From contig JAICXX010000010.1 of assembly GCA_025934485.1 (NCBI GenBank), positions 1-64,000 on the forward strand: 64,000 bases of DNA, given 5' to 3'. The translations under genes and the position numbers were made by a program. Below the pieces are notes generated by a model, which did not search any database, was not told where the DNA came from, and worked only from the letters and a program-made list of their open reading frames with translations. Shown here one piece after another: positions 2,629 through 33,996 of this stretch (its first letter is position 1; each line of letters begins with the position of its first letter). The DNA is from Chitinophagaceae bacterium (GTDB lineage Bacteria > Bacteroidota > Bacteroidia > Chitinophagales > Chitinophagaceae).

Positions 2629-2631
2629 GCC

Positions 2632-3246: not shown

Positions 3247-3266
3247 CGGGTTTAACAGTTGACAAA

Positions 3267-5353: not shown

Positions 5354-5359
5354 CTCCGG

Positions 5360-6007: not shown

Positions 6008-6013
6008 TTTCAA

Positions 6014-6628: not shown

Positions 6629-6630
6629 TC

Positions 6631-7401: not shown

Positions 7402-7406
7402 CAAAG

Positions 7407-8126: not shown

Positions 8127-8142
8127 TCACACCTATCAGCTT

Positions 8143-10486: not shown

Positions 10487-10506
10487 AAAACCACTAAGCG
10501 AATACA

Positions 10507-11972: not shown

Positions 11973-11975
11973 ATT

Positions 11976-13088: not shown

Positions 13089-13103
13089 AACCAACCCTAC
13101 CAC

Positions 13104-14327: not shown

Positions 14328-14330
14328 ACT

Positions 14331-17513: not shown

Positions 17514-18517
17514 GAGTACTCTACATTGGACAATATGGCGCCGGCAGCACCTCGCGTATGCGCGGGGAGAACCTTAAAACGTTGCTGGCCCCTACTACCT
17601 TCGAGGTGATCGATATCGACGAGCCGATCCGGGGAACGCGGCAGCCGTTCCGGTCCCTGGGCTGGCGGTTCAATAGCGGTCCGTTGATCGGCAATATCGC
17701 CAGCTTTATCCGTAACCGGCTGGAGGGTACGTATGACCTGGTATGGGTCGACAAAGGAATATTTCTCGGCGCCAATGTGCTGGGAGAGATACGCGCCGGG
17801 CTCAAAGTTCATTATACGCCTGATACCGCCATCGTTTTTAACAAATCCCGGCTTTTCAACAGCTGTATCCCGCTTTATGACTATTGCATCACGACAAAAT
17901 CCTTTGAGATAGAAGCTTTTAAACAAAAAGGCGCCCGCGAGGTCCTGTTTTGTACACAGGGTTATGATGCCCGCGTTCATCGGCCCATTGATCCGCCGGG
18001 GAAAAGGAATGGAGCGGTTTTTGTCGGGCTTTGCGAACCTTCCCGGGAAGAGGTGCTGGCCAAACTCATTGAAAAAAAGGTCGCGGTGACCCTTGCCGGC
18101 CAAAATTGGGATAAATTTGTTGCCAGGTACCGGAATAACCCCTCTTTGTCTTACATTGGAAAGGGGGTCTTCGGCGAAACCTATGCCGCGCTGATCTCCG
18201 GGAGCGCATTGGGACTCGGGCTCTTATCGAAGCGATTCCCGGAACGGCATACGACCCGCACCCTGGAGATCCCCGCTTGCGGTACGGCCCTTGCCACCGA
18301 ACGCAACGAAGACACCCTTTCGATATTCGGCGAAAAGGAAGTGTTCTTCTATCGCGATACCCGGGAGCTGGTCGAAGGCGTCCCTGCCCTGTTGAATGAT
18401 CCGCAGAAGCTGGAAAAGATCGCCCGGGCGGGCCATCAGCGGGTAACCCGGGGCGGGTACGATTACTTGTCCATCTTGAGAAACTTGTTAAGGAAAATGA
18501 ATGTTCATGCGGAGTAA
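17510..18517 (+). CDS. CgeB-like GT-B glycosyltransferase
   Basis: 335 residues resembling the spore-maturation CgeB / GT_1_2 group. It starts RVLYIGQYGAGSTSRMRGEN, has HYTPDTAIVFNKSRLFNSCI, and ends in the donor site RFPERHTTRTLEIPACGTAL followed by FFYRDTRELVEGV and the closing RVTRGGYDY. This branch is common in Bacteroidota polysaccharide loci. It starts on the stop of the GT4 gene (ATGA), and its last 17 bases overlap the polymerase gene. Confidence 0.8.
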   Translation: MRVLYIGQYGAGSTSRMRGENLKTLLAPTTFEVIDIDEPIRGTRQPFRSLGWRFNSGPLIGNIASFIRNRLEGTYDLVWVDKGIFLGANVLGEIRAGLKVHYTPDTAIVFNKSRLFNSCIPLYDYCITTKSFEIEAFKQKGAREVLFCTQGYDARVHRPIDPPGKRNGAVFVGLCEPSREEVLAKLIEKKVAVTLAGQNWDKFVARYRNNPSLSYIGKGVFGETYAALISGSALGLGLLSKRFPERHTTRTLEIPACGTALATERNEDTLSIFGEKEVFFYRDTRELVEGVPALLNDPQKLEKIARAGHQRVTRGGYDYLSILRNLLRKMNVHAE

Positions 18518-19958
18518 GATTAGGATATTGCCTTTGGTCCAGGTAGTGATCTTCATCCTGGGTTTTTTCACGGATAACTATGGCCCTTTGATCCTGACGC
18601 TGCTTGGTTGTACTATCTTGATGATCCTCGACAACCTCGGGAAAGGTATCGTACTCAGGGAGATCATCGCGCTGCACAGCATCTTTATCTGCCTGGTGAT
18701 GCCGTTGGTCGGGTACAATTTTTTTACAAAGGCCAATGCGCTTGCCCACTTGTGGGTACGCTGGATGCCGGTCCCCGAGGACGAGTACTTTGGTTTTGCG
18801 CTGCCTGCCATCACGGGTTTTGCCCTGGTGTTGTGCTGGCCGTTGAACGATCGGCGTATCAGTGACTATGGGGCTTCTTTGAGCCGGCTGTTGGATGCGG
18901 CCAAAAAGATCGTTCAGTATAAGACGCGTTTCGGCGTGATATTGCTGGGGATCGGGATGGTCGCCTTCGAGGCGCAGAACTTTATGCCGGAGGCTTTACG
19001 GTTTGCCTTTCTGCTGTTCTTTTTCGCCGGTTTTGCCGGCTTTTTATACGTCTACTATTCGAAGAACTTCAAGTTCCGGCGGGTGGTGATCGGCATTTTC
19101 GTAGCCTTTATTCTTGCGGCCACCGTCAACAGCGGGATGTTCACCGTCGTGGCCTATATGGGTCTGACGCTGTTCTCGTTCTTCTTCCTTGGCCGCAAGA
19201 CCCGGCTTTGGAAAAAATTCCTGGTCTTTTGCGTCGGAGGTTTCCTGCTCGTGGTCATCCAAATGGTCAAACCGGCTTTCCGGGCGAAGGTGTGGAAAGA
19301 GGATTACCAGGGTAGCAAAGCGGCCCTCTTCGGCTCGATGTTCGTCGAAAAGGTGAGCAACTTCAGTGTCGAATCGGCAGATCTGTTCTTTCCGGTGTAC
19401 TACCGTACCAACCAGGGCTTCAACGTGGCGCTGGTGATGCGCCGCTTCCCCTCCAAGCATGAGTTCGACTACGGAAGCAAGGTTGCCGTAGACATCGTTT
19501 CTGCGCTGGTGCCCAGATTTCTCTGGCCCGACAAACCGGAGGCGGGCGGGAAATTCAATATGAAGTATTACGCGGGTTTTACCATCAACGGCTGGTCGAC
19601 GAACGTAGGACCGCTGGGAGAGGCCTATGGAAGTTTCGGACCGGTGGGCGGGGTATTTTACATGATACTCCTGGCCTTTTTTATCCGGTGGGCTTACCGG
19701 ACCCTGTTCAAGCTGGCGCAGAAAACCCCTTTATTGCTATTCTGGATACCGGTACTGTTCTACCAGGTGACCTATTCCGCGGAAACCGATACCCTCCAGA
19801 TCATGAATTCCATTTTGAAAGCGGCCTTTTTCGTTTGGTTGTTGTATAAGATAAAACCCGACCTGTTCAAGATCCTTACGGCGCCCCAGCCGCGGAAAGG
19901 CGCCCAGCGAAGACCTGGGACTGTGGGCGAAGGCGCTATGGCAACGGGCCATCATTAA
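18501..19958 (+). CDS. Wzy-like O-antigen/capsule polymerase (membrane)
   Basis: A 485-residue protein with about 10-11 hydrophobic segments and one large loop rich in charged and aromatic residues (about 265-365, with VPRFLWPDKPEAGGKFNMKYY and GWSTNVGPLGEAYGSFG). The long periplasmic loop and the phrase 'PRFLWPDKP...' are typical of Wzy-type polymerases of Bacteroidota, which join lipid-linked repeat units in the periplasm. Two starts are possible, ATG at 18501 or at 18507; an AAGGAAA at 18490-18496 is close enough to serve either. It is the only polymerase candidate in the locus. Confidence 0.72.
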   Translation: MFMRSKIRILPLVQVVIFILGFFTDNYGPLILTLLGCTILMILDNLGKGIVLREIIALHSIFICLVMPLVGYNFFTKANALAHLWVRWMPVPEDEYFGFALPAITGFALVLCWPLNDRRISDYGASLSRLLDAAKKIVQYKTRFGVILLGIGMVAFEAQNFMPEALRFAFLLFFFAGFAGFLYVYYSKNFKFRRVVIGIFVAFILAATVNSGMFTVVAYMGLTLFSFFFLGRKTRLWKKFLVFCVGGFLLVVIQMVKPAFRAKVWKEDYQGSKAALFGSMFVEKVSNFSVESADLFFPVYYRTNQGFNVALVMRRFPSKHEFDYGSKVAVDIVSALVPRFLWPDKPEAGGKFNMKYYAGFTINGWSTNVGPLGEAYGSFGPVGGVFYMILLAFFIRWAYRTLFKLAQKTPLLLFWIPVLFYQVTYSAETDTLQIMNSILKAAFFVWLLYKIKPDLFKILTAPQPRKGAQRRPGTVGEGAMATGHH

Positions 19959-21011: not shown

Positions 21012-22877
21012 ATGTGCGGAATATCGGGAGTAATAAGCGGGAGGGACACGGCATCTTTGCCGGACATCATTCACAGGATCAACGATGCGATGTCGCATCG
21101 CGGGCCCGATGCCGATGGCTTTTTTTTCGAAGACGGTATTGCGCTTGGGCATCGCAGGCTTTCGATCCTGGATCTTTCGTCCGCCGCGAACCAGCCCTTT
21201 ACCGATGCCTCGGGAAGATATGTCATGGTATTTAACGGGGAGATTTATAATTTTCAAGAGATAAAGAAAAAGCTCCCGGAATATCCTTTTCATACCACGG
21301 GTGACACCGAAGTCCTCATCGCGGCTTTCGCCAAATATGGCGCCGAATGTCTCCAGCTGTTGCGCGGCATGTTTGCCCTGGCCATATGGGACAAGCAGGA
21401 ACGCTCCCTGTTCCTGGCAAGGGACAGGTTCGGCGTAAAACCGCTGTATTATCACCATTCGGGCGGCCGCCTGCTCTTTGCCTCCGAGCTCAGGGCCCTG
21501 CTCAACTCCGGCTGGCTGCCCCGCAAGCTTAACCGCAGCGCGGTGACCGACTATCTCAAGTATCAGGCTTTCGCCTCGCCCGTGACGCCCATCGAGGGCG
21601 TGTGTGAATTACCGGCCGGCAACTATATGACCTTTCGCGACGGGCGCGTAGAAACGAAGACCTGGTGGGAGCTCACGGCTCAAAATAAGCCTATCGCGGA
21701 GACCAATATCGGCGCTATCCAAAAACGTATCCGGGAGCTGCTGTATCAATCCGTGGAACGGCGGCTGGCAAGCGATGTATCGCTCGGCGCTTTTCTTTCC
21801 GGCGGTATCGACTCCAGCGCTGTAGTGGCCATTATGTCGCAGGTAAACCCGGGCGCGACGAATGCGTTTACGATCGCCTTCGAAGAAAAGGATTATAACG
21901 AACTACCCTATGCCGAACTGGTAGCGAAAAAATACAAGGTCAATCATACGAAGCTACTGCTGCGGCCGCAGGATTTTCTCGACCAGCTGCCCGGGGCATT
22001 GAATGCTATGGACACCCCGAGCGGCGATGGACCCAACACCTATTTGGTATCGAAAGCCATTCGCAATAGCGGGATTATCGTGGCGCTCTCCGGCATCGGC
22101 GGCGACGAGCTGTTTGCGGGATACCCGTTCTTCAAACAATTTCTTTCCATCAAGAAAAGACAGGGCCTCTTCGACAATTCGCTCGGTGTCCGCAAGGCCT
22201 TATCGTTTTTGCTGCCTGCTTCCGATCAGAAGCTCATCCGGATAAAAGAGCTCCTCGAAGTACCGGCCTCGGATATCACCGACATCTATCCGTTATTCAG
22301 GCAGATCCAGAATCCCAGGGTACTGCAGGGCCTCTATGGCAGGCTGCAGCCGCTGCAGGAGGCCGACACGCTGGAGAAGAATCTGGCAGGCAAGCAAAAG
22401 GCGTTGGACGGCTTTCCGTTCCTGAGCCAGGTGACCATTGCCGATTACCTGGGCTATACTCAGAGCGTGCTGCTCAAGGATGCCGACCAGATGAGCATGG
22501 CCGTGTCCCTGGAGCTCCGTGAGCCCTTTTTCGACAACGACCTTGTCGAATACGTGCTCAATATTCCCGATGACTTTAAATTTCCGGCCTATCCCAAAAA
22601 ACTCCTGGTCGAATCGCTGGGCGATCTGCTCCCGCCCGAGATCGTCTTCAGAAAGAAACAGGGCTTTGTCCTGCCTTATGATCTTTGGATGCGCAGCGAC
22701 CTCAAAGGTTTTTGCGAAGAGAAGATCCGCGGGCTTGCCGCCAGGGGCATCTTCGATGAAGAGAAAATGATCGATTACTGGAACCGGTTTCTCGGACGCA
22801 GATCCAACATCCGCTGGGCCGATGTCTGGATCTTTGTTGTGCTGGAACACTGGCTGGAGAAAAATCAAATATCATGA
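21012..22877 (+). CDS. asnB: glutamine-hydrolysing asparagine synthetase family amidotransferase
   Basis: A 621-residue two-domain enzyme. The N-terminal Ntn glutaminase begins with Met then Cys2 (MCGISGVISG), with MSHRGPDADG and VFNGEIYNF. The synthetase domain has the PP-loop SGGIDSSAVV at about residue 264. Both active sites look complete, so it could make asparagine. Its place inside a glycan operon, with an ATGA overlap to a secreted lyase-like gene, suggests the WbpS-type role known in Pseudomonas O-antigen loci, in which a uronic acid carboxyl is converted to the uronamide. I favour sugar amidation, but sequence alone does not separate the two. Confidence 0.85.
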   Translation: MCGISGVISGRDTASLPDIIHRINDAMSHRGPDADGFFFEDGIALGHRRLSILDLSSAANQPFTDASGRYVMVFNGEIYNFQEIKKKLPEYPFHTTGDTEVLIAAFAKYGAECLQLLRGMFALAIWDKQERSLFLARDRFGVKPLYYHHSGGRLLFASELRALLNSGWLPRKLNRSAVTDYLKYQAFASPVTPIEGVCELPAGNYMTFRDGRVETKTWWELTAQNKPIAETNIGAIQKRIRELLYQSVERRLASDVSLGAFLSGGIDSSAVVAIMSQVNPGATNAFTIAFEEKDYNELPYAELVAKKYKVNHTKLLLRPQDFLDQLPGALNAMDTPSGDGPNTYLVSKAIRNSGIIVALSGIGGDELFAGYPFFKQFLSIKKRQGLFDNSLGVRKALSFLLPASDQKLIRIKELLEVPASDITDIYPLFRQIQNPRVLQGLYGRLQPLQEADTLEKNLAGKQKALDGFPFLSQVTIADYLGYTQSVLLKDADQMSMAVSLELREPFFDNDLVEYVLNIPDDFKFPAYPKKLLVESLGDLLPPEIVFRKKQGFVLPYDLWMRSDLKGFCEEKIRGLAARGIFDEEKMIDYWNRFLGRRSNIRWADVWIFVVLEHWLEKNQIS

Positions 22878-25231
22878 GTACGATCGTTCATCCATACGCC
22901 GCGATCCTTCGCCAGGCGGCGGTTCTCTTATTGGCGGCGGCATGCTTCCTGGCGCCGGCCGTCTCGTACGCACAATCGAGAGAAGAACTCGACGGGCCCT
23001 TCCCCAGCTGGGCGAATGTCAAAACCCGTTTTGGTGCAAAGGGCGACGGCAGGACCGACGATACCAAAGCCTTGCAGACGGCGATCGACAGCCTGAGCAA
23101 CCCGGTGGTGAACTTCAACTTGGGCAGGAGCGGCTATATGGTGATCTGGCTTCCTGCGGGAACCTATTGCATCTCCTCGACCCTGACCCTCAAAGGCAAG
23201 ATCGGGGTAAGCATCATCGGTGAAGACCCCCTGCATACGATGATTAAATGGATCGGCGGCGACCAGAACATGCTGTTCTGGGCGAACGGATCGGCCTATT
23301 TCAAGCTGTCACGGATCACCTGGAATGCCAATGGCCATAAGAACATGGAAGGCATCGGAGTTCATTGGAAAGACAGATGGCGGGATGCCAATTCCCGGAG
23401 CTTTGCCTCCCTGAACATCGAGCTTTCGGATAATAATTTCACCGGCGGCTTCCTCTATGGGATCAGCGGCGGCACGACGGGCGGCGGCGACGGCACGGGC
23501 AACAATGACTCCGAGCTCACCATCCGGCGTTGTCTTTTTGACCACTGCACCGGCTCGGGTATCGAGATCAAAGGCTTCAATGCCCTCGACTACTGGATTT
23601 GGGATTGCCGGTTCATGGGTTGCGGCAACGGCATCCATTGCACGAACGGTGGCTATCATGTCTATCGCTCCTTCTTCTCGGGTTCCGGGGTGGCGGATCT
23701 GCACAACATGCACGGGTACTACAATTCCGCCAGGGGCTGTTACTCGGAAAATTCTTCGGTCTTTTCGGCCGACGAGACCATGAGCTCGAACCCTTTCAAA
23801 AGGATCTTCCAGGATAATACAGTAATCGGCGCCCACCAAATGCCCATTCAGTACTACCACCTAGGCAAGATCACGGTGTTGGGGAATAAATTCGGTCCTT
23901 CACTCGATACGGCAGATAAGTTCAGCGTGAATTACCGCGGCGGTTTCACAGGCATTTATGAGGTTCTTTCGCTGCACAATATCTATCCCAATGCCAACGC
24001 CGTGCGCATCGCCTCGACCCCCAAAAGGCTTTTCACCTATGGTGACAGGATCGCCGCGGTGAAGCCTGCGGCAGAGGGCTTTTTGAAAACGCTGGACCCT
24101 ACACCCCCCCGCGTGAACCGAAAGGTCTTCGAAGTGCCGCCAGGCTCCGGCTCGGCAGCCATCCAGGCCATCCTCGACGAGGCGGCCAGGTTAAAAGGGC
24201 AACGGCCGGTAGTACATTTCGGCATGGGCACCTACGCCATCGACCGGACGCTGGTGATCCCCCCCGGATGCGATATGCAATTGATCGGGGACGGGCTCAT
24301 CGATGCTTCCCAGCTGGTCAAAACGGCGGGCGGAGACTTTCGGCGTAACGCCCTGATCCTCGTGCAGGGGCCGAGCACCGTTGTCCTCCGCGACCTCACG
24401 TTTGGCTCGGATGGAGATGTGGGAAGACTGCCGGCCATCGTATTCAGCGGAGTAGACCAGCGCGGTTCCCAGGCGCATCTCGACCAGATCTATTCCCATG
24501 CCGACACCTCCCTTGTATTGCGCGAGCTGAACAACTTGTATGTAGAGAAAGACAATTCCTTTTTTACCGATGGGAATTATGTTTCCGGGGGTAGCTCCAT
24601 GCAAAATGGGAGCGGCATGGCCGGCCTGTTTTGTTTCGGCGGACAGTGGGCGGGTGTGCGGGTGCAAAAGAACGGTAGATTTCTCGCCAAAGACTGCTGG
24701 TGGGAAGGCGCTACCCGCATACCCCTCGATCTGCAGGGCCAGGGAACCATTTGCATCGACGGCGCCATGTTGGCACCGAACTCCGCCGACAGCATGCCGG
24801 CGATACGTATCGGAAAATTCGATGGCCATATCGCACTGATGAATATGTACGTCCAGGGGGCCTTGCTTCCGGCGGCGGATAATCCCGGGCTCGATCTCCT
24901 CGCGTGGAATATTCATTTTTACCATAAAATGGATGTGCTGAGTTTTCTCCCGCTCCCGGCCGGTGCGCCTGCCTCCTATCACGGTGCCTTTTTGGGTTTG
25001 AATGCCCAGTGTTTCCGGGCCAAGGATCCCGCCTGTCAGGACATCATTTCGATCCCGGACCAGCTCGTGAACGTTCCCAAGGAGGAGCCCTTCCTCGATG
25101 CCGAAACAGGCCTGGACCAGCAAAGCCGGCCTGTACCTTTTAGCAACCTGCCTGCGGGCAGCAGCAATATTTATCTCTCGAGGGTCAGCATCCTGGGTTC
25201 GAGAACCAGTGGCCTCGTGTTTACGCAATAG
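22874..25231 (+). CDS. secreted right-handed beta-helix protein with two pectate-lyase-3-like modules
   Basis: A 785-residue exported protein. Residues 1-34 form a signal peptide ending SYAQS. A Pectate_lyase_3-like module starts near residue 48 with WANVKTRFGAKGDGRTDDTK and ALQTAIDSL and runs into a beta-helix with GNGIHCTNGGYHVYRSFF. A second, similar module starts near residue 417 (AIQAILDEAARLKGQRPVVH, then GTYAIDRTLVIPPG). Such proteins cleave, epimerise or bind acidic polysaccharides outside the cytoplasm. As a member of the operon it may trim or release the polymer made here. The ATG overlaps the asnB stop. Catalytic residues cannot be named with confidence. Confidence 0.78.
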   Translation: MSTIVHPYAAILRQAAVLLLAAACFLAPAVSYAQSREELDGPFPSWANVKTRFGAKGDGRTDDTKALQTAIDSLSNPVVNFNLGRSGYMVIWLPAGTYCISSTLTLKGKIGVSIIGEDPLHTMIKWIGGDQNMLFWANGSAYFKLSRITWNANGHKNMEGIGVHWKDRWRDANSRSFASLNIELSDNNFTGGFLYGISGGTTGGGDGTGNNDSELTIRRCLFDHCTGSGIEIKGFNALDYWIWDCRFMGCGNGIHCTNGGYHVYRSFFSGSGVADLHNMHGYYNSARGCYSENSSVFSADETMSSNPFKRIFQDNTVIGAHQMPIQYYHLGKITVLGNKFGPSLDTADKFSVNYRGGFTGIYEVLSLHNIYPNANAVRIASTPKRLFTYGDRIAAVKPAAEGFLKTLDPTPPRVNRKVFEVPPGSGSAAIQAILDEAARLKGQRPVVHFGMGTYAIDRTLVIPPGCDMQLIGDGLIDASQLVKTAGGDFRRNALILVQGPSTVVLRDLTFGSDGDVGRLPAIVFSGVDQRGSQAHLDQIYSHADTSLVLRELNNLYVEKDNSFFTDGNYVSGGSSMQNGSGMAGLFCFGGQWAGVRVQKNGRFLAKDCWWEGATRIPLDLQGQGTICIDGAMLAPNSADSMPAIRIGKFDGHIALMNMYVQGALLPAADNPGLDLLAWNIHFYHKMDVLSFLPLPAGAPASYHGAFLGLNAQCFRAKDPACQDIISIPDQLVNVPKEEPFLDAETGLDQQSRPVPFSNLPAGSSNIYLSRVSILGSRTSGLVFTQ

Positions 25232-25316: not shown

Positions 25317-26459
25317 ATGGAAAAAAAAAGGATCCTCGTATTAGTTGATTGGTTTGCGCCCGGATACAAAGCGGGGGGGCCGATACAAAGCTGTGTCAAT
25401 TTCTCCTTCGCCATGAAGAACGATTATTCTATCTATGTGCTCACCACAGACACGGATCATGGCGAAACGCATCCCTATACTGGAATAACCTCGGGCCGGT
25501 GGACCAACGACATGGACCCCGATATCCGGGTCTTTTACCTGGAGAAAACGGCTGTTTCTGCAAAACGAATTCGGGAACAAATCGATGCGGTGCACGCGGA
25601 TTATGTCTACCTGAATCATATGTGGTCGCCGCTATTCGTCCTGTACCCCCTTTGGTTGAAATTCAGCGGCAGGCTCAAAGGCGAGATCGTCCTCTGCCCC
25701 CGTGGCGCGCTTTACGAAAGCGCGTTGTCCGTGAAACGCTGGAAAAAAAAGCCGATCCTTTCGCTCTTTCGTTGGTTGCGGCTGGACAAACGCATCCTTT
25801 TCCATGCCACCAACGAGCGGGAGAGGTCCGCTATCCTTCAGCATCTTCCCGGGAGCCGCGTGCTCATCGCGGACAACCTGCCGAACATGCACCAGCCGCC
25901 CTTCAAAAGCCTGCCCAAAGAACGGGGCAATCTTCGATGTATTTTCATAGCCCGCATCGTGCCGATCAAAAATTTGCAATTCCTTCTCGGGGCGCTGGAA
26001 AAGGTGAAGGCCGAGGTGAAGCTGAGCATAATCGGGCCGATAGAGGACCAGGCCTATTGGAAAGAATGTACTCAAAAAATAGCCCAGCTGCCTGCGAATA
26101 TCAAGGTGGACTACCTCGGGCCCATGCGCAACGACGAGCTTATGGCGATCCTGCAACATCATCATCTGTTCGCCCTACCCACTACCGGCGAGAATTTCGG
26201 ACATTCGATCTTCGAGGCGCTACTGGCAGGCCGCCCCGTGCTCATCAGCGACCAGACGCCCTGGCTGGGTCTGGCGGGCCAAAAAGCAGGCTGGGACCTT
26301 CCGCTGGCCGATCCTGATGCCTTCACCCGGGTGATTGAAGATGTGGCGCAGCAGGACCAGGAGGTTTTCGACTACTGGGCGCAATCCGCATGGACATACG
26401 CCCATAAATTCATCAAAAATCCTGAACTTCACGGCCAATACCTCAAGCTGTTCGCATGA
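25317..26459 (+). CDS. glycosyltransferase family 4
   Basis: 380 residues from ATG 25317 (MEKKRILVLVDWFAPGYKAG); a TTG at 25308 would add three residues, and I prefer the ATG. Marks of GT4 are GGPIQSCVNF near the N-terminus, CPRGALYESAL, FIARIVPIKNLQFLLGAL and the donor motif TTGENFGHSIFEALLAGRPV. This branch is frequent in colanic-acid-like clusters beside WcaF-type acyltransferases, as here: the next gene starts on its stop codon (ATGA). Confidence 0.87.
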   Translation: MEKKRILVLVDWFAPGYKAGGPIQSCVNFSFAMKNDYSIYVLTTDTDHGETHPYTGITSGRWTNDMDPDIRVFYLEKTAVSAKRIREQIDAVHADYVYLNHMWSPLFVLYPLWLKFSGRLKGEIVLCPRGALYESALSVKRWKKKPILSLFRWLRLDKRILFHATNERERSAILQHLPGSRVLIADNLPNMHQPPFKSLPKERGNLRCIFIARIVPIKNLQFLLGALEKVKAEVKLSIIGPIEDQAYWKECTQKIAQLPANIKVDYLGPMRNDELMAILQHHHLFALPTTGENFGHSIFEALLAGRPVLISDQTPWLGLAGQKAGWDLPLADPDAFTRVIEDVAQQDQEVFDYWAQSAWTYAHKFIKNPELHGQYLKLFA

Positions 26460-27019
26460 CAACTTCCACACCCGGGCAGGTCGACAATTCCGCTTACCGG
26501 ACTACCATCGCCATTGGCGCATCCAGGCCAAAACAATTGGCGTGGTATCTCGTAAATATTATTTTCTTCAAAAATCCGTTTAACATACTTTCATCGGTGA
26601 AGGTATCTTTGCTAAAGCTTTTTGGCGCCAGGATCGGCGTCGGGGTGCTCATAAAACCTTCCGTAAACATCAAGTTTCCCTGGAAACTCGAAATAGGTGA
26701 CCATTCCTGGATTGGCGAGGAAGTATGGATCGACAACTTGTCCGAGGTGATCATCGGAAGGAATGTCACCCTTTCCCAAGGTTGTCTTTTGCTCACCGGA
26801 AGTCATGATCATACCCGGACGACGTTCGACTTCCTTTCGGGTGTTATCGTTCTCGAGGACGGGGCATGGATTGGCGCCAGGGCGATAGTGGCAGGCGGTA
26901 CTACCTGCAGGACCCATAGTATCCTGGGCATGAACTCTGTAGCGGAAAAGGACCTGGAACCATATACGATTTATAAAGGCAACCCCGCGGTGCCTGTAAT
27001 AACAAGGAGAATAGTGTGA
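26456..27019 (+). CDS. WcaF-like left-handed beta-helix acyltransferase
   Basis: A 187-residue protein of the WcaF/colanic-acid acetyltransferase type. The N-terminal amphipathic part (PKQLAWYLVNIIFFKNPFNI) is followed by hexapeptide repeats (GARIGVGVLIKPSVNIKFPW, IGDHSWIGEEVWIDNL, VIIGRNVTLSQGCLLLTG). The active-site His lies in SHDHTRTTFD at about residue 120, and the end is YKGNPAVPVI. It O-acylates a sugar, normally with acetyl-CoA. Its start overlaps the GT4 stop, and its stop overlaps the E1 gene (GTGA). That makes it the closest candidate acceptor-side enzyme for the acyl group produced by the following three genes. Confidence 0.82.
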   Translation: MTTSTPGQVDNSAYRTTIAIGASRPKQLAWYLVNIIFFKNPFNILSSVKVSLLKLFGARIGVGVLIKPSVNIKFPWKLEIGDHSWIGEEVWIDNLSEVIIGRNVTLSQGCLLLTGSHDHTRTTFDFLSGVIVLEDGAWIGARAIVAGGTTCRTHSILGMNSVAEKDLEPYTIYKGNPAVPVITRRIV

Positions 27020-28962
27020 ATACGGACATCAGAACGATCAATCATAAGGTCATCAAGGAAGCCTTGCGCATCCGCAAGGTGGAAGAGAAATTCCTCGAGC
27101 TCTTCTCCCTGGGCAAGCTCAACGGTACTGTTCATACCTGTGTCGGCCAGGAATTGTCCGCCATAGCCTTTGCGGGGCAGCTCAAGAAAAAGGACTTCGT
27201 CTTTTCCAATCACCGCTGCCACGGGCATTATATCGCTTTCACCGGCGATGTCAGGGGGCTGCTGGCCGAACTGCTGGGCAAGGCTTCCGGCACCTGCGGG
27301 GGCATTGGCAGCAGCCAGCATCTTTGTCACAATAATTTTTATTCCAATGGCATCCAGGGCGGTATCGTGCCCGTGTCGGCCGGCTATGCCCTCGGTAACA
27401 AGCTAAAGGGCAATGAAGGCATCGGCGTCGTCTTCATCGGCGACGGCACCCTGGGCGAGGGGACCTTGTACGAAACGATGAATATCATTTCCAAATGGGA
27501 GATACCCTTGCTGATCGTCTGCGAAAATAATTTCTACGCCCAGTCCACACCGCAAAGCGTCAATCTGGCCGGCGATATCCTGGCCCGCGCCGAAGCGTTC
27601 GGTATCCGAACGGATAAGGCTGATACCTGGTCGCCCGAGACATTGATCCCTAAAGCCCAGGAAGCGATATCCTATGTCCGTGGCACAGGAAAGCCTTGTT
27701 TCTTCCTGGTGGAGACTTATAGGCTCAACGCCCACTCCAAAGGCGACGACGACCGTGATCCCGCGGAAGTAAAGGAATACCTGGCAAAGGATTTTCTGCG
27801 GCGGTTCGAAGATGAGTCTCCTTCGTATTTCCGGATGTACAGTGATTCGATCAACGGCGAGATCAATGGTATGGTAGATGAGATCCTGCAGGAAGGAACC
27901 CTCGAGCCGGAAAAATATTATCGTCACGAAAAGCGGACGTTTTCCGGAGGGTGGACGCCGCTGCAGCCGATCAATAAACGGCAGGTGGAGCTGCTCAACA
28001 ACTTTTTCCGGGAACAGATCGTCGCCGACGAACGCACGGTATTCCTGGGGGAGGATATCCATTCGCCCTATGGCGGCGCCTTCAAGGTGACAAGAGAGCT
28101 GTCCTTTCTGGCGCCGCAGCGGGTATTTTCCTCGCCGATATCCGAGTCCGCGATCACCGGGATTTCCAATGGGCTTGCGCTCAATGGATTCAAGCCGTGT
28201 GTCGAGATCATGTTCGGCGATTTTATTACCCTTGCCTTCGACCAGATCGTGAATCATGCGTCGAAGTTCCATCACATGTTCAATAAGAAGGTGAGCTGTC
28301 CGGTGGTGGTCCGCACGCCCATGGGTGGCCGCAGAGGATATGGCCCCACACATTCGCAGACGCTCGACAAATTCCTGGTGGGGATCGATAATGTAAAGAC
28401 CGTCGCGCTGAATACCCTGCTCGATCCTGCTATTCTTTACCGGTCCATCAGCGCCGAGCAGCATCCCGTAGTAGTGATAGAGAACAAAACCGATTACGGA
28501 AAGAAGATAGCGCAACAACAATGGCCGAACTTTGTTGCCGAACGCAATGAAGACGAGTATCCCGTGGTGAGGATACGCCCCGCAACTTCGGTTCCTACGC
28601 TTACCATTGTCGCATATGGCGGCATGGCCGATGTAGTAGCCGGGATGCTGGACGAAATTTTCCGGGAGGCGGATCATAAACCGGAGCTCTTGGTGCCTTC
28701 ACTGATCTCTGACCTGCCGGTGGATATTGTACTCGATTCGCTAAAACATACCGGCCGTTTACTGGTGGTGGAGGAAGGGTCGGGGTTTGCCGGTATCGGC
28801 AGCGAGCTCATTGCGGCGGTTGTCGAGAGGGCGGAGTTCCGGATCAAAGCCCGCCGCGTGGCGGCGCATCCGGTACCGATACCTTCGGTCAAATCGCTCG
28901 AGAATGAGGTGCTTCCCGATAAGAAAAGAATATTGGCGGAAATCAAAGCGAGCTTTCACTAA
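27016..28962 (+). CDS. fused E1-alpha/E1-beta 2-oxoacid dehydrogenase component (TPP-dependent)
   Basis: A 648-residue fusion. Residues 1 to about 310 are E1-alpha: the thiamine-diphosphate motif starts with GDG at 142-144 (VVFIGDGTLGEGT) and ends with the Asn pair at 171-172. From about residue 318 the E1-beta part follows (VFLGEDIHSPYGGAF, FSSPISESAITGISNGLALN, GYGPTHSQ with the conserved His). This enzyme decarboxylates a 2-oxoacid and transfers the acyl group to a lipoyl arm. The start is GTG at 27016, overlapping the preceding stop. Its TAA overlaps the E2 ATG by one base. It is unexpected in a glycan operon; related fused E1 enzymes (NapB type) supply two-carbon hydroxyacyl units to carrier proteins. 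Confidence 0.9.
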   Translation: MNTDIRTINHKVIKEALRIRKVEEKFLELFSLGKLNGTVHTCVGQELSAIAFAGQLKKKDFVFSNHRCHGHYIAFTGDVRGLLAELLGKASGTCGGIGSSQHLCHNNFYSNGIQGGIVPVSAGYALGNKLKGNEGIGVVFIGDGTLGEGTLYETMNIISKWEIPLLIVCENNFYAQSTPQSVNLAGDILARAEAFGIRTDKADTWSPETLIPKAQEAISYVRGTGKPCFFLVETYRLNAHSKGDDDRDPAEVKEYLAKDFLRRFEDESPSYFRMYSDSINGEINGMVDEILQEGTLEPEKYYRHEKRTFSGGWTPLQPINKRQVELLNNFFREQIVADERTVFLGEDIHSPYGGAFKVTRELSFLAPQRVFSSPISESAITGISNGLALNGFKPCVEIMFGDFITLAFDQIVNHASKFHHMFNKKVSCPVVVRTPMGGRRGYGPTHSQTLDKFLVGIDNVKTVALNTLLDPAILYRSISAEQHPVVVIENKTDYGKKIAQQQWPNFVAERNEDEYPVVRIRPATSVPTLTIVAYGGMADVVAGMLDEIFREADHKPELLVPSLISDLPVDIVLDSLKHTGRLLVVEEGSGFAGIGSELIAAVVERAEFRIKARRVAAHPVPIPSVKSLENEVLPDKKRILAEIKASFH

Positions 28963-30341
28963 TGGCATTATTACAGGAGATACAGGTACCCCTTTTGGCG
29001 GTAAACGATACAACCCTTACGGTCGTGGAGCTTGGTTTTCTTTCCGGCGCCCGCGTAAACAAAGGCGATGTGGTCATGGTCTTCGAGACCTCCAAAACGA
29101 CGTATGATGTCGAAGCCGGGGCCGATGGGTATATTCAATATTTTTGTGAAACGGAGCGGGATTATGATGTGAATACGGTCGTGGCGCGGATCTATAGCGA
29201 GGCCGGGGAGGCTGCCGCGCCGGTCGCCCCCGTGATGCCACCGCCGGCTCGTACTCCCACCGGTGCTTCTCCCACCGGTGCTTCTCCCGCTGCTGCTTAT
29301 TCCGTCGCTGCTTATTCCGTCGCCGGTACACCCGTCGCGGTCGAATCACCGGCCGCACCCCTCCGTTACTGGGAAGGCGAGACCCTTTTCTCCCGTGAGG
29401 CGACCCGGCTTATAGACGAGCACGGCATCGACCGCGCGGCATTTGCCGGGAGGGATCTTGTCACCGGCGCCGATGTGGTGGGATATATGCAGCCACCGCC
29501 CGCGGCCGGCCCCGCCGCCAAACAAGGGCTCAGGACTTCCGCGCCCACAACGGTCGATCCGGCAAAGGCCATCGTTCAGCGGCTGACATCCGCGAAAAAA
29601 CGAGAGATCGAATACCTGGGCGAGGTGCAATCTCCGGGCATCACCAGCACGATCGACATATATATCGATACCGAAAACATTTTCACACACATCAACCGGT
29701 CGCTGAAATACCTCAAGGATTCCCTGCTGCCGGTGATCATATATGAAAGTTCGCGGCTGCTGGTGGGCTACCCCATGCTGAATGCCTGGTTCACGGGCGA
29801 TGGAGTGGCTGTTTATCATGAAGTCAGCCCGGGTTTTGCCATCGATATCGACAAGGGGCTCAAGGTGTTGAAGCTAGCCCGCGCCGGGGAGAAAAGCGTA
29901 GCGGAGATCGAAGCGGATATCCTGCGGCTCTCCGGCAGCTATCTCGACGAAACGCTGGAGTTGGATTCGCTTACCGATATCACCTTTACCATCACGGACC
30001 TGTCCTCCGAAGGCGTTGCATTCTTCCGGCCCCTCGTGAATAAGATGAACAGTGCTATCCTCGGCGTCTCGGCTATCGACAATAAACTGCAGCGGTGTGT
30101 GTTGAGTCTTACCTTCGACCACCGGGTGACAGAAGGCAAGCTCGCCGCGCGTTTCCTGAGCGAGCTCAAGGAAAGGCTTGAATCTTATCGACCCAGGGAT
30201 TTTCAGGGGTATAAGGATGTTTCATGCTTCAAGTGTTTCAAGACGTTGAAGGAAGACCTTGGCGGTACCGGCTTCGCCCGTTGTATTTCGCCTGAAGGAA
30301 AAGAAGGATATATCTGTCAGACATGCCTAAAGGGATTTTAG
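28962..30341 (+). CDS. E2 dihydrolipoyl acyltransferase with C-terminal cysteine cluster
   Basis: A 459-residue protein. Order: lipoyl domain 1-80 with K45 in FETSKTTYDV; a Pro/Ala-rich linker made of two perfect 15-bp tandem duplications (29256-29285 and 29292-29321); a peripheral-subunit-binding domain at about 143-177 (LFSREATRLIDEHGIDRAAF); a catalytic domain with H387 in TFDHRVTEG, where the usual DHRxxDG has Glu for Asp; then a 38-residue tail with Cys422, 425, 441, 452 and 455, which looks like a zinc ribbon not found in normal E2. It transfers the acyl group from lipoyl to CoA or another thiol. There is no E3 gene nearby, so E3 must come from elsewhere in the genome. Confidence 0.85.
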   Translation: MALLQEIQVPLLAVNDTTLTVVELGFLSGARVNKGDVVMVFETSKTTYDVEAGADGYIQYFCETERDYDVNTVVARIYSEAGEAAAPVAPVMPPPARTPTGASPTGASPAAAYSVAAYSVAGTPVAVESPAAPLRYWEGETLFSREATRLIDEHGIDRAAFAGRDLVTGADVVGYMQPPPAAGPAAKQGLRTSAPTTVDPAKAIVQRLTSAKKREIEYLGEVQSPGITSTIDIYIDTENIFTHINRSLKYLKDSLLPVIIYESSRLLVGYPMLNAWFTGDGVAVYHEVSPGFAIDIDKGLKVLKLARAGEKSVAEIEADILRLSGSYLDETLELDSLTDITFTITDLSSEGVAFFRPLVNKMNSAILGVSAIDNKLQRCVLSLTFDHRVTEGKLAARFLSELKERLESYRPRDFQGYKDVSCFKCFKTLKEDLGGTGFARCISPEGKEGYICQTCLKGF

Positions 30342-30345
30342 AAAC

Positions 30346-31176
30346 ATGGAAGAGAAAATAAAAGAGATCGTATCCGTCTTTATCAGGGTTCCCACCGGGA
30401 ATATCGGGCCTTCGACGCCTGTGGACCGCAGTGCGGTGCAAAACTCCATCCTGCTCCACCGGATGTATGCCCGGCTGGCCGAAGAAGGGTTTGCGTTCGA
30501 GAACTACAGCACGATAAAAGTATTCGGCGAACTGCTGAAGCCATTCACTTCATTCCGCGCCGACTCGCCGGAAGCCACGACCACGGCGGCCTCAGCCGGC
30601 CCGCGCGCGGTTGCCTCGTCGCTGTCCTCCCACTCCGGCTCCATTGTCCCTTGGGAGACTGCCCCCCGGACCGACTTACTGTCAACCTACAGCGGCCCCA
30701 GGGCACCGCAGGGCGATCAAGCAATCGTCGGCATCGACATGGAAGCGGTCGCCAACTTGCCCCGCGTATCAGATTTCCGCACTGCCGAATTTTACCGGAT
30801 GAACTTTTCCCCGGAGGAAACAGCCTACTGTATTCTTCAAGTCGACCCGTATGCCTCCTTTGCGGGGTTGTTCGCGGCGAAAGAGGCGATTGTAAAGGCA
30901 GATGAACAATATAGAACGCGACCCTTCCATACCCTGGCCATCGGCCATTCCGATCAGGGAAAACCTTTGTACCCCGGTTTCAGCCTGAGCATTTCTCATG
31001 CTAACGAAATGGCTGTTGCGGTAGCCGTAAAGAACGGCGGGGCCATGTTCCAGCCTCCCGCCCCTGCCGCTTCGTTGAGCCCAAAACCCGGAAAGAAGGC
31101 GGGATCGACCACCGCGATTACCTGGCTGGCTTTGCTGCTCGCACTGGCCGCGTTACTCGTCACGCTGCTGAGATAA
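30346..31176 (+). CDS. acyl-carrier-like domain fused to AcpS-type phosphopantetheinyl transferase, membrane-anchored
   Basis: 276 residues. Residues 1-70 resemble an acyl carrier protein: helix I EEKIKEIVSVFIRV, then S34 in AVQNSILLHRMY at the place of the phosphopantetheine Ser, and YSTIKVFGELL at the end. A Ser/Ala/Pro linker runs to about 125. Residues 127-228 match AcpS: VGIDMEAV with metal-binding D131, FAAKEAIVKA with E180, and LSISHANEMAVAV. A second linker leads to a hydrophobic segment at 256-275 closing with Arg. It could modify its own carrier domain and hold it at the membrane. The PPTase part is convincing; the carrier part is inferred from pattern and spacing. Confidence 0.75.
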   Translation: MEEKIKEIVSVFIRVPTGNIGPSTPVDRSAVQNSILLHRMYARLAEEGFAFENYSTIKVFGELLKPFTSFRADSPEATTTAASAGPRAVASSLSSHSGSIVPWETAPRTDLLSTYSGPRAPQGDQAIVGIDMEAVANLPRVSDFRTAEFYRMNFSPEETAYCILQVDPYASFAGLFAAKEAIVKADEQYRTRPFHTLAIGHSDQGKPLYPGFSLSISHANEMAVAVAVKNGGAMFQPPAPAASLSPKPGKKAGSTTAITWLALLLALAALLVTLLR

Positions 31177-31188
31177 GACCCTATAGAA

Positions 31189-31935
31189 ATGAAGATATCG
31201 ATCATTACTGCAACTTTTAACAGCGCTGCTACAGTGACGGACACCCTGTCCTGCATCAGCGGGCAGGATCATCCCGATATCGAGCACATTATCGTAGACG
31301 GCGGTTCGGGGGACAAGACGCTGGAGATCGTGTCAAAGTTTCCCCACGTATCGAGGGTGGTTACCGGCAAAGACAAGGGTATCTACGATGCCATGAACAA
31401 AGGCATCGGTCTGGCGACGGGCGATGTCATCGGCATCCTGAACTCAGACGACGTCTATACCGGCAGCGCCGTGCTCTCCGATGTCGCCCGGGTGTTCGCC
31501 GACCCGGCGGTCATGACCGCCTATGCCGATCTGCAATACGTGGACGTCGATGACCTGCAAAAGGTCCGGCGCTATTGGAGGTCGGGCCCTTTTAGACCCA
31601 AAAATTTCTATTTCGGCTGGATGCCGCCGCATCCTACCTTCTTCGTTCGTAGGGAAGTATACAACCGGTCGGGTTTGTTCAATCTCGAAATGCATTCGGC
31701 GGCCGATTATGAGCTTATGCTTCGTATCTTGCTGAAGCTTAGGCTACCAGCATACTATATTCCGCAGGTGATCGTAAAGATGCGCACAGGTGGCATTAGT
31801 AACGCAAGCCTCTTCAATAGACTTCGTGCCAATAAAGAAGATCGACTGGCATGGAAGTTGAACGGGCTAAAACCTTATTTTTTTACTTTGTATTTGAAAC
31901 CCCTGAGGAAGATCCATCAGTTCATAATTAAATAA
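31189..31935 (+). CDS. glycosyltransferase family 2 (WcaE-like)
   Basis: A 248-residue GT2. The N-terminus MKISIITATFNSAATVTDTL, HIIVDGGSGDKTLEI, the phrase KDKGIYDAMNKGIGLATGD and the DXD-like LNSDDVYTG are typical of the WcaE/AmsE branch, followed by HPTFFVRREVY and AADYELMLR. It usually acts on early, fucose-containing intermediates. The position just before gmd and fcl fits fucosyl transfer, but this is inference. Confidence 0.87.
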   Translation: MKISIITATFNSAATVTDTLSCISGQDHPDIEHIIVDGGSGDKTLEIVSKFPHVSRVVTGKDKGIYDAMNKGIGLATGDVIGILNSDDVYTGSAVLSDVARVFADPAVMTAYADLQYVDVDDLQKVRRYWRSGPFRPKNFYFGWMPPHPTFFVRREVYNRSGLFNLEMHSAADYELMLRILLKLRLPAYYIPQVIVKMRTGGISNASLFNRLRANKEDRLAWKLNGLKPYFFTLYLKPLRKIHQFIIK

Positions 31936-31952
31936 ATAAATAATCAGACTTC

Positions 31953-33068
31953 ATGGCAAAAACGGCTTTGATAACCGGTGTCACCGGCCAGGATGGCGCC
32001 TATCTTAGTGAACTTCTTTTGAAAAAAGGCTATATCGTTCATGGGATCAAAAGACGGAGCTCCCTGTTCAATACCGATAGGATCGACCATCTTTATCAGG
32101 ACCCGCACGAGAACGACGTACGTTTCAAACTACACTACGGCGATCTCACGGACTCGACCAACCTTATCCGGATCATCCAGGAGACGCAACCGGATGAGAT
32201 CTATAATCTCGCGGCCATGAGTCATGTGCATGTGAGCTTCGACATGCCCGAGTACACCGCCAATGCAGATGGTATCGGCACTCTGCGGATCCTCGAAGCG
32301 GTGCGGCTCCTCGACTTGACAAAAAAGACCCGGGTCTACCAGGCCTCGACGTCGGAGCTCTATGGCCTTGTCCAGGCCGTGCCCCAAAGTGAGACTACGC
32401 CGTTCTACCCCCGTAGCCCTTATGCTGTGGCCAAGCTTTATGGTTACTGGATCACCGTAAATTATCGCGAGGCTTACGGCATGTATGCCTGCAATGGAAT
32501 ACTCTTCAATCACGAATCGCCGCTCCGGGGCGAGACCTTTGTGACCCGCAAGATCACCCGTGGCGTCGCCAAGATCGGCCTGGGTCTGCAGGACAAGATC
32601 TATCTAGGCAACCTGGATGCCCGCCGCGACTGGGGGCATGCCAAAGACTATGTGGAAGCAATGTGGCGCATCCTTCAGCAACCGGTGGCCGAAGACTATG
32701 TGATCGCCACCGGCGTGACGACCCCCGTCCGGGATTTCGTGCGCATGGCTTTTGCAGAGATCGGGGTGGAACTGGAATTCAAGGGAAAAGCGGAAAAAGA
32801 GGTCGGTGTCGTCGCAAGCAGCAACAACCCTGATTTTATGGTGCCCGTGGGTAAAGAGGTGATTGCCGTGGACTCCAAATATTACCGGCCCACAGAGGTC
32901 GATTTGCTGATAGGCGATCCCACGAAAGCGCAGACAAAGCTCGGCTGGAAACCCACCTATGATCTGCCGATGCTTGTCAAGGATATGATGGACGGCGATA
33001 TCCAGCTGTTCCGTAAAGAACGGACGTTGAAAGATTCAGGATTTTACGTTAAGAACCAGTACGAATAA
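31953..33068 (+). CDS. gmd: GDP-mannose 4,6-dehydratase
   Basis: A 371-residue short-chain dehydrogenase/reductase. The NADP-binding [20 protein letters not shown] is followed by the RR of [16 protein letters not shown], the active-site STSELYG and [15 protein letters not shown] (YxxxK), and [18 protein letters not shown]. It converts GDP-mannose to GDP-4-keto-6-deoxymannose. fcl follows after one base, so the product flows to GDP-L-fucose. The usual AQSHV reads [10 protein letters not shown] here, a mild variant. Confidence 0.96.
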
Positions 33069-33069
33069 T

Positions 33070-33996
33070 ATGCAAGTTACTGATAAGATCTATGTTGCCG
33101 GCCATCGCGGGATGGTCGGCTCGGCCATCACCCGCAAATTGCAGAAGGGAGGATTTTCCAATTTGGTTTTTCGCACTTCTGCCGAGCTCGATCTCAAGAA
33201 CCAGGCCGCCGTGCAGGCTTTTTTTGCGGCGGAGCGGCCGGACTATGTGTTCCTCGCTGCCGCCAGGGTCGGCGGCATCATGGCGAATAACACCTACCGC
33301 GGAGAGTTTTTATATGACAACCTGATGATCCAGAACAATACCATCGACGCCGCCTATCGTAACGGGGTGAAGAAGCTGATGTTCCTGGGCTCTTCCTGTA
33401 TCTATCCCAAGCTGGCGCCGCAGCCGCTCAGGGAAGATTACCTCCTCACTGGCCTGCTCGAAGAGACCAACGAGCCCTATGCCATCGCCAAGATCGCCGG
33501 CATCAAATTATGCGACGCCTACAGGTCGCAATACGGCTGCAATTTCATTTCGGTGATGCCCACAAACCTCTATGGCCCCAACGACAACTACGATCTCAAT
33601 AATTCGCATGTGCTGCCGGCGCTTATCCGGAAATTCCACGAGGCGAAGGCGTCCTCGGCTCCCACCGTGACCATGTGGGGTTCGGGCAAGCCCAAACGTG
33701 AATTCCTGCATGCCGACGACCTCGCGGATGCCTGCTTCTTCCTGATGCAGCATTACAATGAGCCCGGACTGGTAAACATCGGCACAGGCGAAGAGCTCGC
33801 TATCGGCGAGCTGGCGTTGCTCGTAAAAGAGACAGTAGGCTATACCGGCGAGATCGTTCATGACCTGAGCAAACCGGATGGCACCCCGAGAAAGCTCATG
33901 GATGTCTCGAAATTGCATAGCTTTGGCTGGAAACACCAGATCGACCTGAAGGACGGCCTCCGGCGGGTCTATGAGGAATATAAAAAGCAGCACTGA
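33070..33996 (+). CDS. fcl: GDP-L-fucose synthase
   Basis: A 308-residue epimerase/reductase. [14 protein letters not shown] is the NADP site, then [35 protein letters not shown] and [10 protein letters not shown] (the YxxxK catalytic pair), and [20 protein letters not shown]. It epimerises C3 and C5 of GDP-4-keto-6-deoxymannose and reduces C4 to give GDP-L-fucose. It works directly after gmd. A 62-nt gap then separates it from the phosphatase gene. Confidence 0.96.

Follow-up and report, generated by a model that had tools for sequence, protein, structure and literature searches.

The DNA analysed here, called the window, is a 64,000-nt stretch of contig JAICXX010000010.1 (GCA_025934485.1, Chitinophagaceae bacterium); the nearest relatives of its genome are records titled Chitinophagaceae, Sphingobacteriales or Bacteroidetes. 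At positions 26456–31176 it carries a cassette of four abutting genes: a WcaF-family acyltransferase, a fused E1 dependent on thiamine diphosphate (ThDP), a lipoyl-bearing E2, and a protein in which a predicted acyl carrier protein (ACP) domain is joined to an AcpS-type phosphopantetheinyl transferase (PPTase) domain and a membrane helix (carrier-PPTase). The cassette is probably a dedicated acyl-supply module of the fucose-type exopolysaccharide locus that surrounds it. This reading draws on gene order, domain content, conserved catalytic residues, co-occurrence of the genes across phyla, and the presence or absence of the cassette in a similar locus, all of which are seen directly in the sequences. 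All four open reading frames (ORFs) of the original prediction were found, on the forward strand and in the order given; the first two junctions overlap by 4 and 1 bases, and the third has a 4-base gap.

Relatives were collected by a contig scan with an E1 alignment, and the best 80 E1-relative loci were kept as the base for all locus counts (numbers with L, G and C are our handles for loci, genomes and contigs). E1, E2 and carrier-PPTase were found together in 31 of these best 80 loci, from many phyla by record title. Their co-occurrence elsewhere had been set as a test beforehand.

The fused E1 and its kinship

The E1 carries three Pfam domains (E1_dh, Transket_pyr and Transketolase_C) in a single chain, in agreement with the predicted alpha-beta fusion with an intact ThDP motif. 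The recognized motifs were GDGTLGEG...NN at 142, ISE at 375 and THSQ at 445; we take the ThDP motif and the beta Glu377 to be catalytic. In a quick maximum-likelihood tree of 86 E1s, rooted at the midpoint, 81 rows including the window E1 were separated with a support of 100 from five rows labelled as pyruvate dehydrogenase (PDH) or branched-chain 2-oxoacid dehydrogenase (BCKDH) type. Among the 81 were also RenH (renieramycin), a Streptomyces ACP-E1a-E1b-E2 set beside nonribosomal peptide synthetase (NRPS) genes, and a Paenibacillus set beside ACP genes. RenH was 44% identical to the window E1 across 99% of the E1 length. The window E1, RenH and the Streptomyces set had in common the loops SNHR[C/G]HGH, GPTHSQ and HSKGDD, the last with a 2-residue deletion, and these were missing from the four 2-oxoacid dehydrogenase E1s compared.

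The genome encoded a lipoamide dehydrogenase above cut-off (543.6 bits). Further E1s were encoded on contigs C57 and C368 and, as a fusion, on C164, and further E2s on C109, C12 and C262, with 23–34% identity to the cassette proteins over the matched stretches. A plain housekeeping PDH or BCKDH was ruled out by the E1 tree together with these copies. By sequence, the cassette E1 and E2 are extra copies, distinct from the housekeeping PDH/BCKDH of the genome.

Alternatively, the cassette could be a local pyruvate dehydrogenase that makes acetyl-coenzyme A (acetyl-CoA) for ordinary acetylation by WcaF, with the carrier protein as a side feature. The nearest solved structures to the E1 were indeed 2-oxoacid and pyruvate dehydrogenases, all catalytic domains were present, and the WcaF relatives are annotated as acetyltransferases. 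The position of the E1 outside the five PDH/BCKDH-type rows, the other E1/E2 copies, the retention of carrier and PPTase in 31 loci, and the nine of 33 genus genomes with WcaF in which no cassette E1 was found (some of them incomplete) all argue against this alternative, which we regard as very unlikely.

The E2 and the carrier-PPTase

The predicted lipoyl and catalytic (CAT) domains of the E2 were recovered by Pfam (Biotin_lipoyl and 2-oxoacid_dh). The likewise predicted E3-binding domain (PSBD) had no Pfam match, and its call is based on an alignment and a purpose-made profile. We take lipoyl Lys45 and His387, the latter in the CAT motif DHRVTEG at 386, to be catalytic. This motif had Glu in the window at the place of the textbook Asp, and relatives had Glu, Asp or, in L096, Asn. 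At the C-terminus, the E2 had a CxxC...CxxC tail (Cys422, 425, 441, 452 and 455) that looks like a zinc ribbon. The tail may help to dock the carrier, because it was found in 31/31 carrier-type loci, as well as in L168 from a separate search, versus 5 of the 11 CAT loci without a carrier (one of these, L063, was not scored).

For the carrier-PPTase, AlphaFold (32 aligned sequences) gave an N-terminal helical domain, an AcpS domain and a C-terminal helix. The block means of the predicted local distance difference test (pLDDT) were 93–98 for residues 1–60, and the helix 34–46 began exactly at Ser34, supporting the anticipated ACP fold. Ser34, presumably the catalytic residue of the carrier, was invariant in 32/32 aligned proteins, the N-terminal domain being otherwise very divergent, and short or poorly aligned in the rows from L084, L094 and L102. 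When profiles were compared with hhalign, this domain matched ACPs with 82–85% probability, with Ser34 aligned on the ACP serine; the best of 40 column-shuffled controls reached 0.8%. The Foldseek and VIA match lists were dominated by the AcpS domain and barely probe the ACP part. The N-terminal domain is thus predicted, from model and profiles, to be an ACP domain.

The AcpS half was recognized by Pfam and aligned with the PPT domain of a fungal fatty acid synthase (2wat_F; VIA-align Z 15.9, root-mean-square deviation 1.8, 100 residues). Residues D131, E158, K179, E180, K184 and H218, which we take to be those of the AcpS active site, were invariant in 32/32, with a KEAIVKA motif at 179. The helix 255–275 had a pLDDT block mean of 74 for residues 251–260 and 95–97 beyond. 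The predicted ACP-AcpS-helix fusion was thereby recovered, with the ACP part lacking a Pfam call. Since relatives in 32 rows align across the ACP as well as the AcpS part, a chance fusion of the two ORFs was ruled out. Hydropathy and alignment showed the membrane helix in the relatives of the window and in some further proteins, but not in many others; a membrane-anchored carrier is thus predicted for the window and not for the family as a whole. Among 395 genomes of the window's phylum, 135 had matches to the carrier-PPTase, of which only three (G000, G126 and G422) covered the carrier domain by profile range; the remaining matches look like ordinary AcpS.

WcaF and the locus within the genus

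The WcaF protein passed the NF007797 model (208.2 bits, cut-off 192), in line with the acyltransferase originally called, and failed the TIGR04008 equivalog for colanic acid acetyltransferase (124.5 bits, cut-off 326.3). E1 and carrier-PPTase were found in the same 7 of 33 genus genomes, an association beyond chance. All six genus relatives examined had E1, E2 and carrier with gmd and fcl downstream, and a WcaF with 73–83% identity to that of the window. WcaF was found at an E-value of 1e-40 or better in 16 of the 33 genomes. The WcaF of the nine genomes in which no cassette E1 was found had 53–71% identity. In four of these nine the locus was examined, and in all four WcaF directly adjoined the GT2 gene, which in the window follows the cassette. 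Because the cassette-less loci join WcaF straight to GT2, the cassette appears as a discrete module in an otherwise similar locus. In the WcaF tree the cassette type required two label changes, and 3 of 500 shuffles were as low. WcaF as an obligate partner of the cassette was only partly borne out, since the cassette-less G002 groups with the cassette type.

The original prediction had named an AT3 protein as the alternative transferase. An AT3-like gene was found between WcaF and E1 in 4/6 genus relatives (one was given to Pfam and confirmed), whereas in the window the AT3 gene lies ~10 kb from the cassette. A variant compatible with the acyl-supply reading is that the carrier feeds AT3, for transfer across the membrane, and not the cytosolic WcaF-like enzyme. 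The membrane helix of the carrier, the four genus relatives just mentioned, the AT3 gene directly after the carrier in L075, and the MBOAT genes of L077 (directly behind E2) and L110 (a few genes further along) would fit this variant. We consider it the less probable arrangement: WcaF overlaps E1 by 4 bases in the window, LbH neighbours are commoner than AT3 ones (18/31 vs 4/31), and the G002 locus has an AT3 gene and no cassette.

Two wirings around one E1 family

In the best 80 loci, the gene next to E1 was of two main types: 42 loci had a CAT-type E2 there, and 23 had a lipoyl-LbH protein, in which a left-handed beta-helix (LbH, hexapeptide) acyltransferase domain stands in the place of the CAT domain. 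A carrier-PPTase was found beside 31/42 CAT-type E2s and 0/23 lipoyl-LbH proteins (Fisher p 1.3e-9, or 4.0e-8 without the seven nearest relatives). Niastella populi and Pollutibacter soli (L043, L044) bear the carrier type, and Rhodohalobacter sulfatireducens (L103) and Kiloniella laminariae (L119) have lipoyl-LbH proteins in sugar loci. A separate LbH gene was present within four genes in 18/31 carrier-type loci, 0/23 lipoyl-LbH loci (p 3.3e-6, or 2.2e-4 without the seven nearest relatives) and 1/11 CAT loci without a carrier (L061). These p-values ignore phylogeny and are hence optimistic. In the 15 loci outside the 42-versus-23 comparison no E2 was recognized beside E1, due to contig ends, a long overlapping ORF (L093, excluded from the neighbour counts) or an E2-like gene further away. 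In L099, L106 and L114 the more distant gene encoded an LbH protein, with the lipoyl part recognized by Pfam (L106 and L114) or by reading (L099).

Six of the 23 lipoyl-LbH proteins (L098, L072, L118, L089, L088 and L119) were submitted to Pfam, and all six had a hexapeptide match; the lipoyl model was above cut-off in five and below it in L119. Our own hexapeptide pattern scored 0 or 1 for L072, L082, L088 and L091; the LbH call came from Pfam for L072 and L088, and from reading only for L082 and L091. Lipoyl Lys46 was invariant in 16 aligned lipoyl-LbH proteins. In the model of the protein from L098 (Dokdonia pacifica), the C-terminal half matched 4ea7 (E 4e-16) and 4m99. The LbH types were scattered over several places of the E1 tree, and their LbH domains occurred with and without a PglD N-terminal domain; the replacement of CAT by LbH has therefore probably happened more than once. 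Searching the 395 genomes of the phylum gave six lipoyl-LbH matches, four at full length (G069, G259, G343 and G364) and two to the PglD-like part only.

Where the transferase is fused, the acyl group would pass directly from lipoamide to the acceptor, and where it is separate, via the carrier. The family as a whole may represent a lipoamide-driven, CoA-bypassing acylation pathway, occurring sporadically over many phyla and often in sugar loci, with two wirings around one E1 family. In the first, a Cys-tailed CAT-E2 would load a self-priming ACP, often membrane-anchored, that serves a separate sugar acyltransferase. In the second, CAT was apparently replaced more than once by an LbH acyltransferase, which would transfer from lipoamide directly to an amino sugar or another acceptor. 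We give this wider picture about even chances.

Further loci showed additional arrangements. L168, from a separate genome search, had E1, a Cys-tailed CAT-type E2 and carrier-PPTase, together with AsnB, glycosyltransferase and hexapeptide genes in the same locus. Directly downstream of its carrier-PPTase (7285–9045, reverse strand) lies a gene for a 586-residue Pyr_redox_2 protein; this could be a partner of E3 type, or a flavoenzyme that has nothing to do with the cassette. In L171 and L172 (~6.2–11.8 kb), DegT-like, E1, lipoyl-LbH and Gfo/Idh-like genes stand in a row, and HisH/HisF/WbuX-like genes come after them; the lipoyl part was recognized by a purpose-made profile, and Pfam on L171 yielded the hexapeptide only. 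These may be amino-sugar loci in which the lipoyl-LbH protein takes the place of the usual N-acetyltransferase. On the short contig of L170 there were E1 alpha, E1 beta and lipoyl-LbH. L106 encoded, just upstream of E1 (6567–9044), an 825-residue protein with radical SAM, lipoyl and hexapeptide/PglD-like domains. L077 had an MBOAT gene directly after E2 (13055–14575) and L110 one a few genes beyond E2 (11449–12924), both without carrier-PPTase; they are perhaps a third wiring. The record of L064 is titled Klebsiella pneumoniae (a metagenome-assembled genome) and its E1 groups with Planctomycetota and Acidobacteriota rows, so it is probably a mislabelled bin.

Glycan and natural-product surroundings

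The same E1/E2 family also occurs in natural-product settings. NRPS genes were found by Pfam beside L057, L083 and L098, and gene clusters pointed toward an NRPS or polyketide synthase (PKS) type of setting for L060, L101 and L107. In L063 (Ruminiclostridium sufflavum, 11947–19119), the E2 (lipoyl and CAT) was the N-terminal part of a 2390-residue PKS with KS, DH, KR and ACPs; judging by its domains it stands in place of the PKS loading domain, beside the same E1 family. In L098 (Dokdonia pacifica, 1897–13037), genes for an AMP-ligase and a C-A-PCP NRPS precede E1 and lipoyl-LbH, with L101 and L107 alike; L098 may be a small natural-product locus with a lipoyl acyltransferase.

Because relatives lie beside NRPS/PKS or MBOAT genes, we infer that acceptors of more than one kind receive acyl groups from the E1/E2 family; for the window, the glycan role is therefore argued from the genes around its cassette. 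Alternatively, the acyl-carrier might serve a lipid, the modification of a protein or a small natural product, in which case the cassette would sit in a glycan locus only incidentally. The PKS fusion of L063, the NRPS genes beside L057, L083 and L098, RenH, and the carrier-type cassettes without recognized glycan neighbours would all agree with this. The window itself had no ORF of more than 944 residues and therefore no modular NRPS/PKS, the cassette holds its position with WcaF, gmd and fcl in 6/6 genus relatives, and some relatives have the lipoyl domain fused to an LbH domain of sugar-acyltransferase type. On balance, we regard this alternative as unlikely.

Several observations nevertheless weigh against an acyl-supply module for the glycan. 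When neighbours within four genes were compared with the window genes, a glycosyltransferase or sugar gene was recognized in only 17/31 carrier-type, 8/23 lipoyl-LbH and 0/11 carrier-less CAT loci. Six carrier-type cassettes had no marker genes nearby (L059, on a short contig, L067, L078, L084, L085 and L094), and a seventh without a marker match, L074, had an LbH gene by Pfam. The modelled lipoyl-LbH protein of L098 adjoins NRPS genes, as do its kin from L101 and L107 by gene cluster. An LbH fusion is therefore not always in a glycan locus, and our confidence in both the acyl-supply module and the two wirings was lowered because of L098. PF00550 matched 1/28 homologous N-domains of the carrier (E 0.015), and not that of the window. 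The cassette-type WcaFs formed no clean clade, the cassette-less G002 nesting among them. In the midpoint-rooted E1 tree, the genome's own PDH and BCKDH sat on long branches. The neighbour counts are inexact: the LbH profiles missed the LbH gene of L074 (Pfam 36.7 bits), and the gene tagged as LbH in L096 was just under the Pfam cut-off (26.1 vs 27). The loci are also not independent, with L040, L041, L042 and L051 repeating L031, L034, L033 and L032, and G126 and G259 being the same as L055 and L103.

The cassettes of L067, L078, L084, L085 and L094 came from Planctomycetota, Armatimonadota, Pseudomonadota and Spirochaetota, and had no acyltransferase or glycan marker within four genes.

Proposed pathway

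For the acyl-supply module that we favour, every catalytic step, substrate, acyl group and acceptor is proposed by homology. With its ThDP, the fused E1 would draw a short acyl unit from a 2-oxoacid or a ketose phosphate, and would load it on lipoyl-Lys45 of the E2. The CAT domain of the E2 would hand the acyl to the phosphopantetheine thiol on ACP Ser34, not to CoA. Ser34 would be primed by the AcpS domain of the same chain, and the C-terminal helix would anchor the carrier at the inner membrane. The lipoyl group would be reoxidised by a housekeeping lipoamide dehydrogenase, perhaps recruited by the PSBD. Finally, the adjacent WcaF-like enzyme (in relatives, the adjacent AT3 protein) would transfer the acyl to a sugar, which may be fucose or its lipid-linked unit. 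Transfer to a sugar, as first proposed, is consistent with the adjacent WcaF and with the LbH domains that replace CAT in relatives. The E1 loops differ from those of PDH. Our best guess for the acyl group, at roughly even chances, is glycolyl, followed by acetyl or propionyl.

If true, the delivery of ketose- or 2-oxoacid-derived acyl groups by E1/E2 would be a further donor route for surface sugars. Glycans bearing glycolyl or other unusual acyl groups would then be expected, and the enzymology of thiamine and lipoate would be connected with the cell surface. As single proteins, the lipoyl-LbH fusions are open to direct testing, and a carrier fused to its own PPTase would be a compact part that primes itself. 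Acylated polysaccharides in environmental Bacteroidota and other groups could be traced with the E1 and carrier genes as markers.

Features and surroundings in the window

The cassette (Table 1) was flanked by glycosyltransferases, a polymerase-like protein (under the cut-off of its model), gmd and fcl. The longest window ORF spanned 944 residues between stops, and no NRPS/PKS assembly line was found in the window. Three ORFs exceeded 700 residues: a pectate-lyase-like protein (Pfam), and CarB and AlaS, recognized by eye. The first, at 22874–25231 in the polysaccharide operon, is a 785-residue right-handed beta-helix protein, also found in several relatives (L031, L032, L034 and L044). Further upstream, at 10507–13088 and 6014–9306, were Gfo/Idh-like, hexapeptide and DegT-like genes, accompanied by HisH, HisF-like and WbuX genes, the last for an N-acetyl sugar amidotransferase (277.9 bits). 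The Gfo/Idh-like and DegT-like genes are homologous to those of L171 and L172, and the hexapeptide protein between them is a plain one. This set likely provides a diamino sugar and an acetamidino modification for the same polysaccharide.

Table 1 Cassette genes, their domains and the adjoining downstream genes in the window.
Feature	Positions	Strand	Basis
WcaF-family hexapeptide (LbH) acyltransferase, 187 aa	26456–27019	+	NF007797
Fused alpha-beta ThDP E1, 648 aa, GTG start	27016–28962	+	Pfam E1_dh, Transket_pyr, Transketolase_C
E2, 459 aa: lipoyl, PSBD, CAT, C-terminal Cys tail	28962–30341	+	Pfam, alignment, motifs
Carrier-PPTase protein, 276 aa (predicted ACP + AcpS + helix)	30346–31176	+	Pfam ACPS, AlphaFold, profiles
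Predicted ACP domain, residues 1–70, Ser34 proposed 4'-phosphopantetheine site	30346–30555	+	
AcpS-type phosphopantetheinyl transferase domain, residues 128–230	30727–31035	+	Pfam ACPS 4.1e-9
C-terminal membrane helix, residues 255–276	31108–31173	+	Model helix 255–275, hydrophobic sequence
GT2 glycosyltransferase	31189–31935	+	Best NCBIfam match WcaE, far under cut-off
gmd + fcl, GDP-L-fucose synthesis	31953–33996	+	TIGR01472 585 bits; NF047922 500.1 bits, cut-off 500

Comparison with known systems

Besides acyl-CoA, acyl-ACP is also a donor for bacterial sugar acylation, for example by LpxA. For AT3 proteins, a passage in PMC9558356 gives acyl-CoA as a demonstrated donor; in PMC9833829, on the AT3 fold, no passage on donors was found. 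Among the titles and abstract starts listed for the open-licence PMC literature (subscription papers lie outside it), none dealt with a supply of acyl groups for glycans by E1/E2 or lipoyl enzymes, with lipoyl-LbH fusions or with this carrier-PPTase fusion.

The cassette is like housekeeping PDH and BCKDH in its domain types and, presumably, catalytic chemistry. It differs from them by its separate group in the E1 tree, the carrier, and the lack of an E3 gene among the cassette genes.

NapB/NapD and QncN/QncL/QncM are glycolicacyl-loading systems of the same kind from natural-product clusters. According to PMC6335953, it has been shown that the QncN/QncL/QncM set makes a glycolicacyl unit and directs its attachment; for SclQ1-4 of scleric acid, a ketose phosphate is proposed there as the source, and deletion of sclQ1-4 left residual product. 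The link to such systems made in the original prediction agrees with the RenH similarity and with this homologous Qnc precedent. Like the cassette, Qnc and Scl combine ThDP E1 parts, a lipoyl-E2 and a dedicated ACP, with a PPTase (SclP) in the scl cluster; the likeness was drawn via the grouping of the window E1 with RenH and the Streptomyces Qnc-like set. In contrast to Qnc and Scl, the cassette has a one-chain E1, an ACP that shares its chain with an AcpS and a membrane helix, a Cys tail on the E2, and a polysaccharide locus as its setting, with no NRPS in the window.

The pepteridine pathway of Photorhabdus, as outlined in part of PMC5384830, was proposed to use an E1-like protein and an E2-T-C fusion to prime a carrier that replaces CoA, E3 not being part of the pathway; unlike in the cassette, the acyl goes to a pterin via an NRPS condensation domain. 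In the O-polysaccharide locus of Flavobacterium psychrophilum, the ACP WfpD was predicted to feed the PglD-like WfpG (part of PMC6519341). As in the cassette, a glycan locus of a Bacteroidota member combines a dedicated ACP with an LbH sugar acyltransferase; the difference is that the acyl was proposed there to come from fatty-acid-type synthesis, not from E1/E2.

The nucleotide-sugar N-acetyltransferases PerB, PglB and PglD match the C-terminal half of the L098 lipoyl-LbH protein, which differs from them by its N-terminal lipoyl domain, a dedicated adjoining E1 and NRPS genes as its other neighbours. The priming of carriers by E1/E2 in natural-product pathways is thus already known or proposed. 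The open-licence papers listed included no glycan case, and the lipoyl-LbH architecture of the relatives is possibly new.

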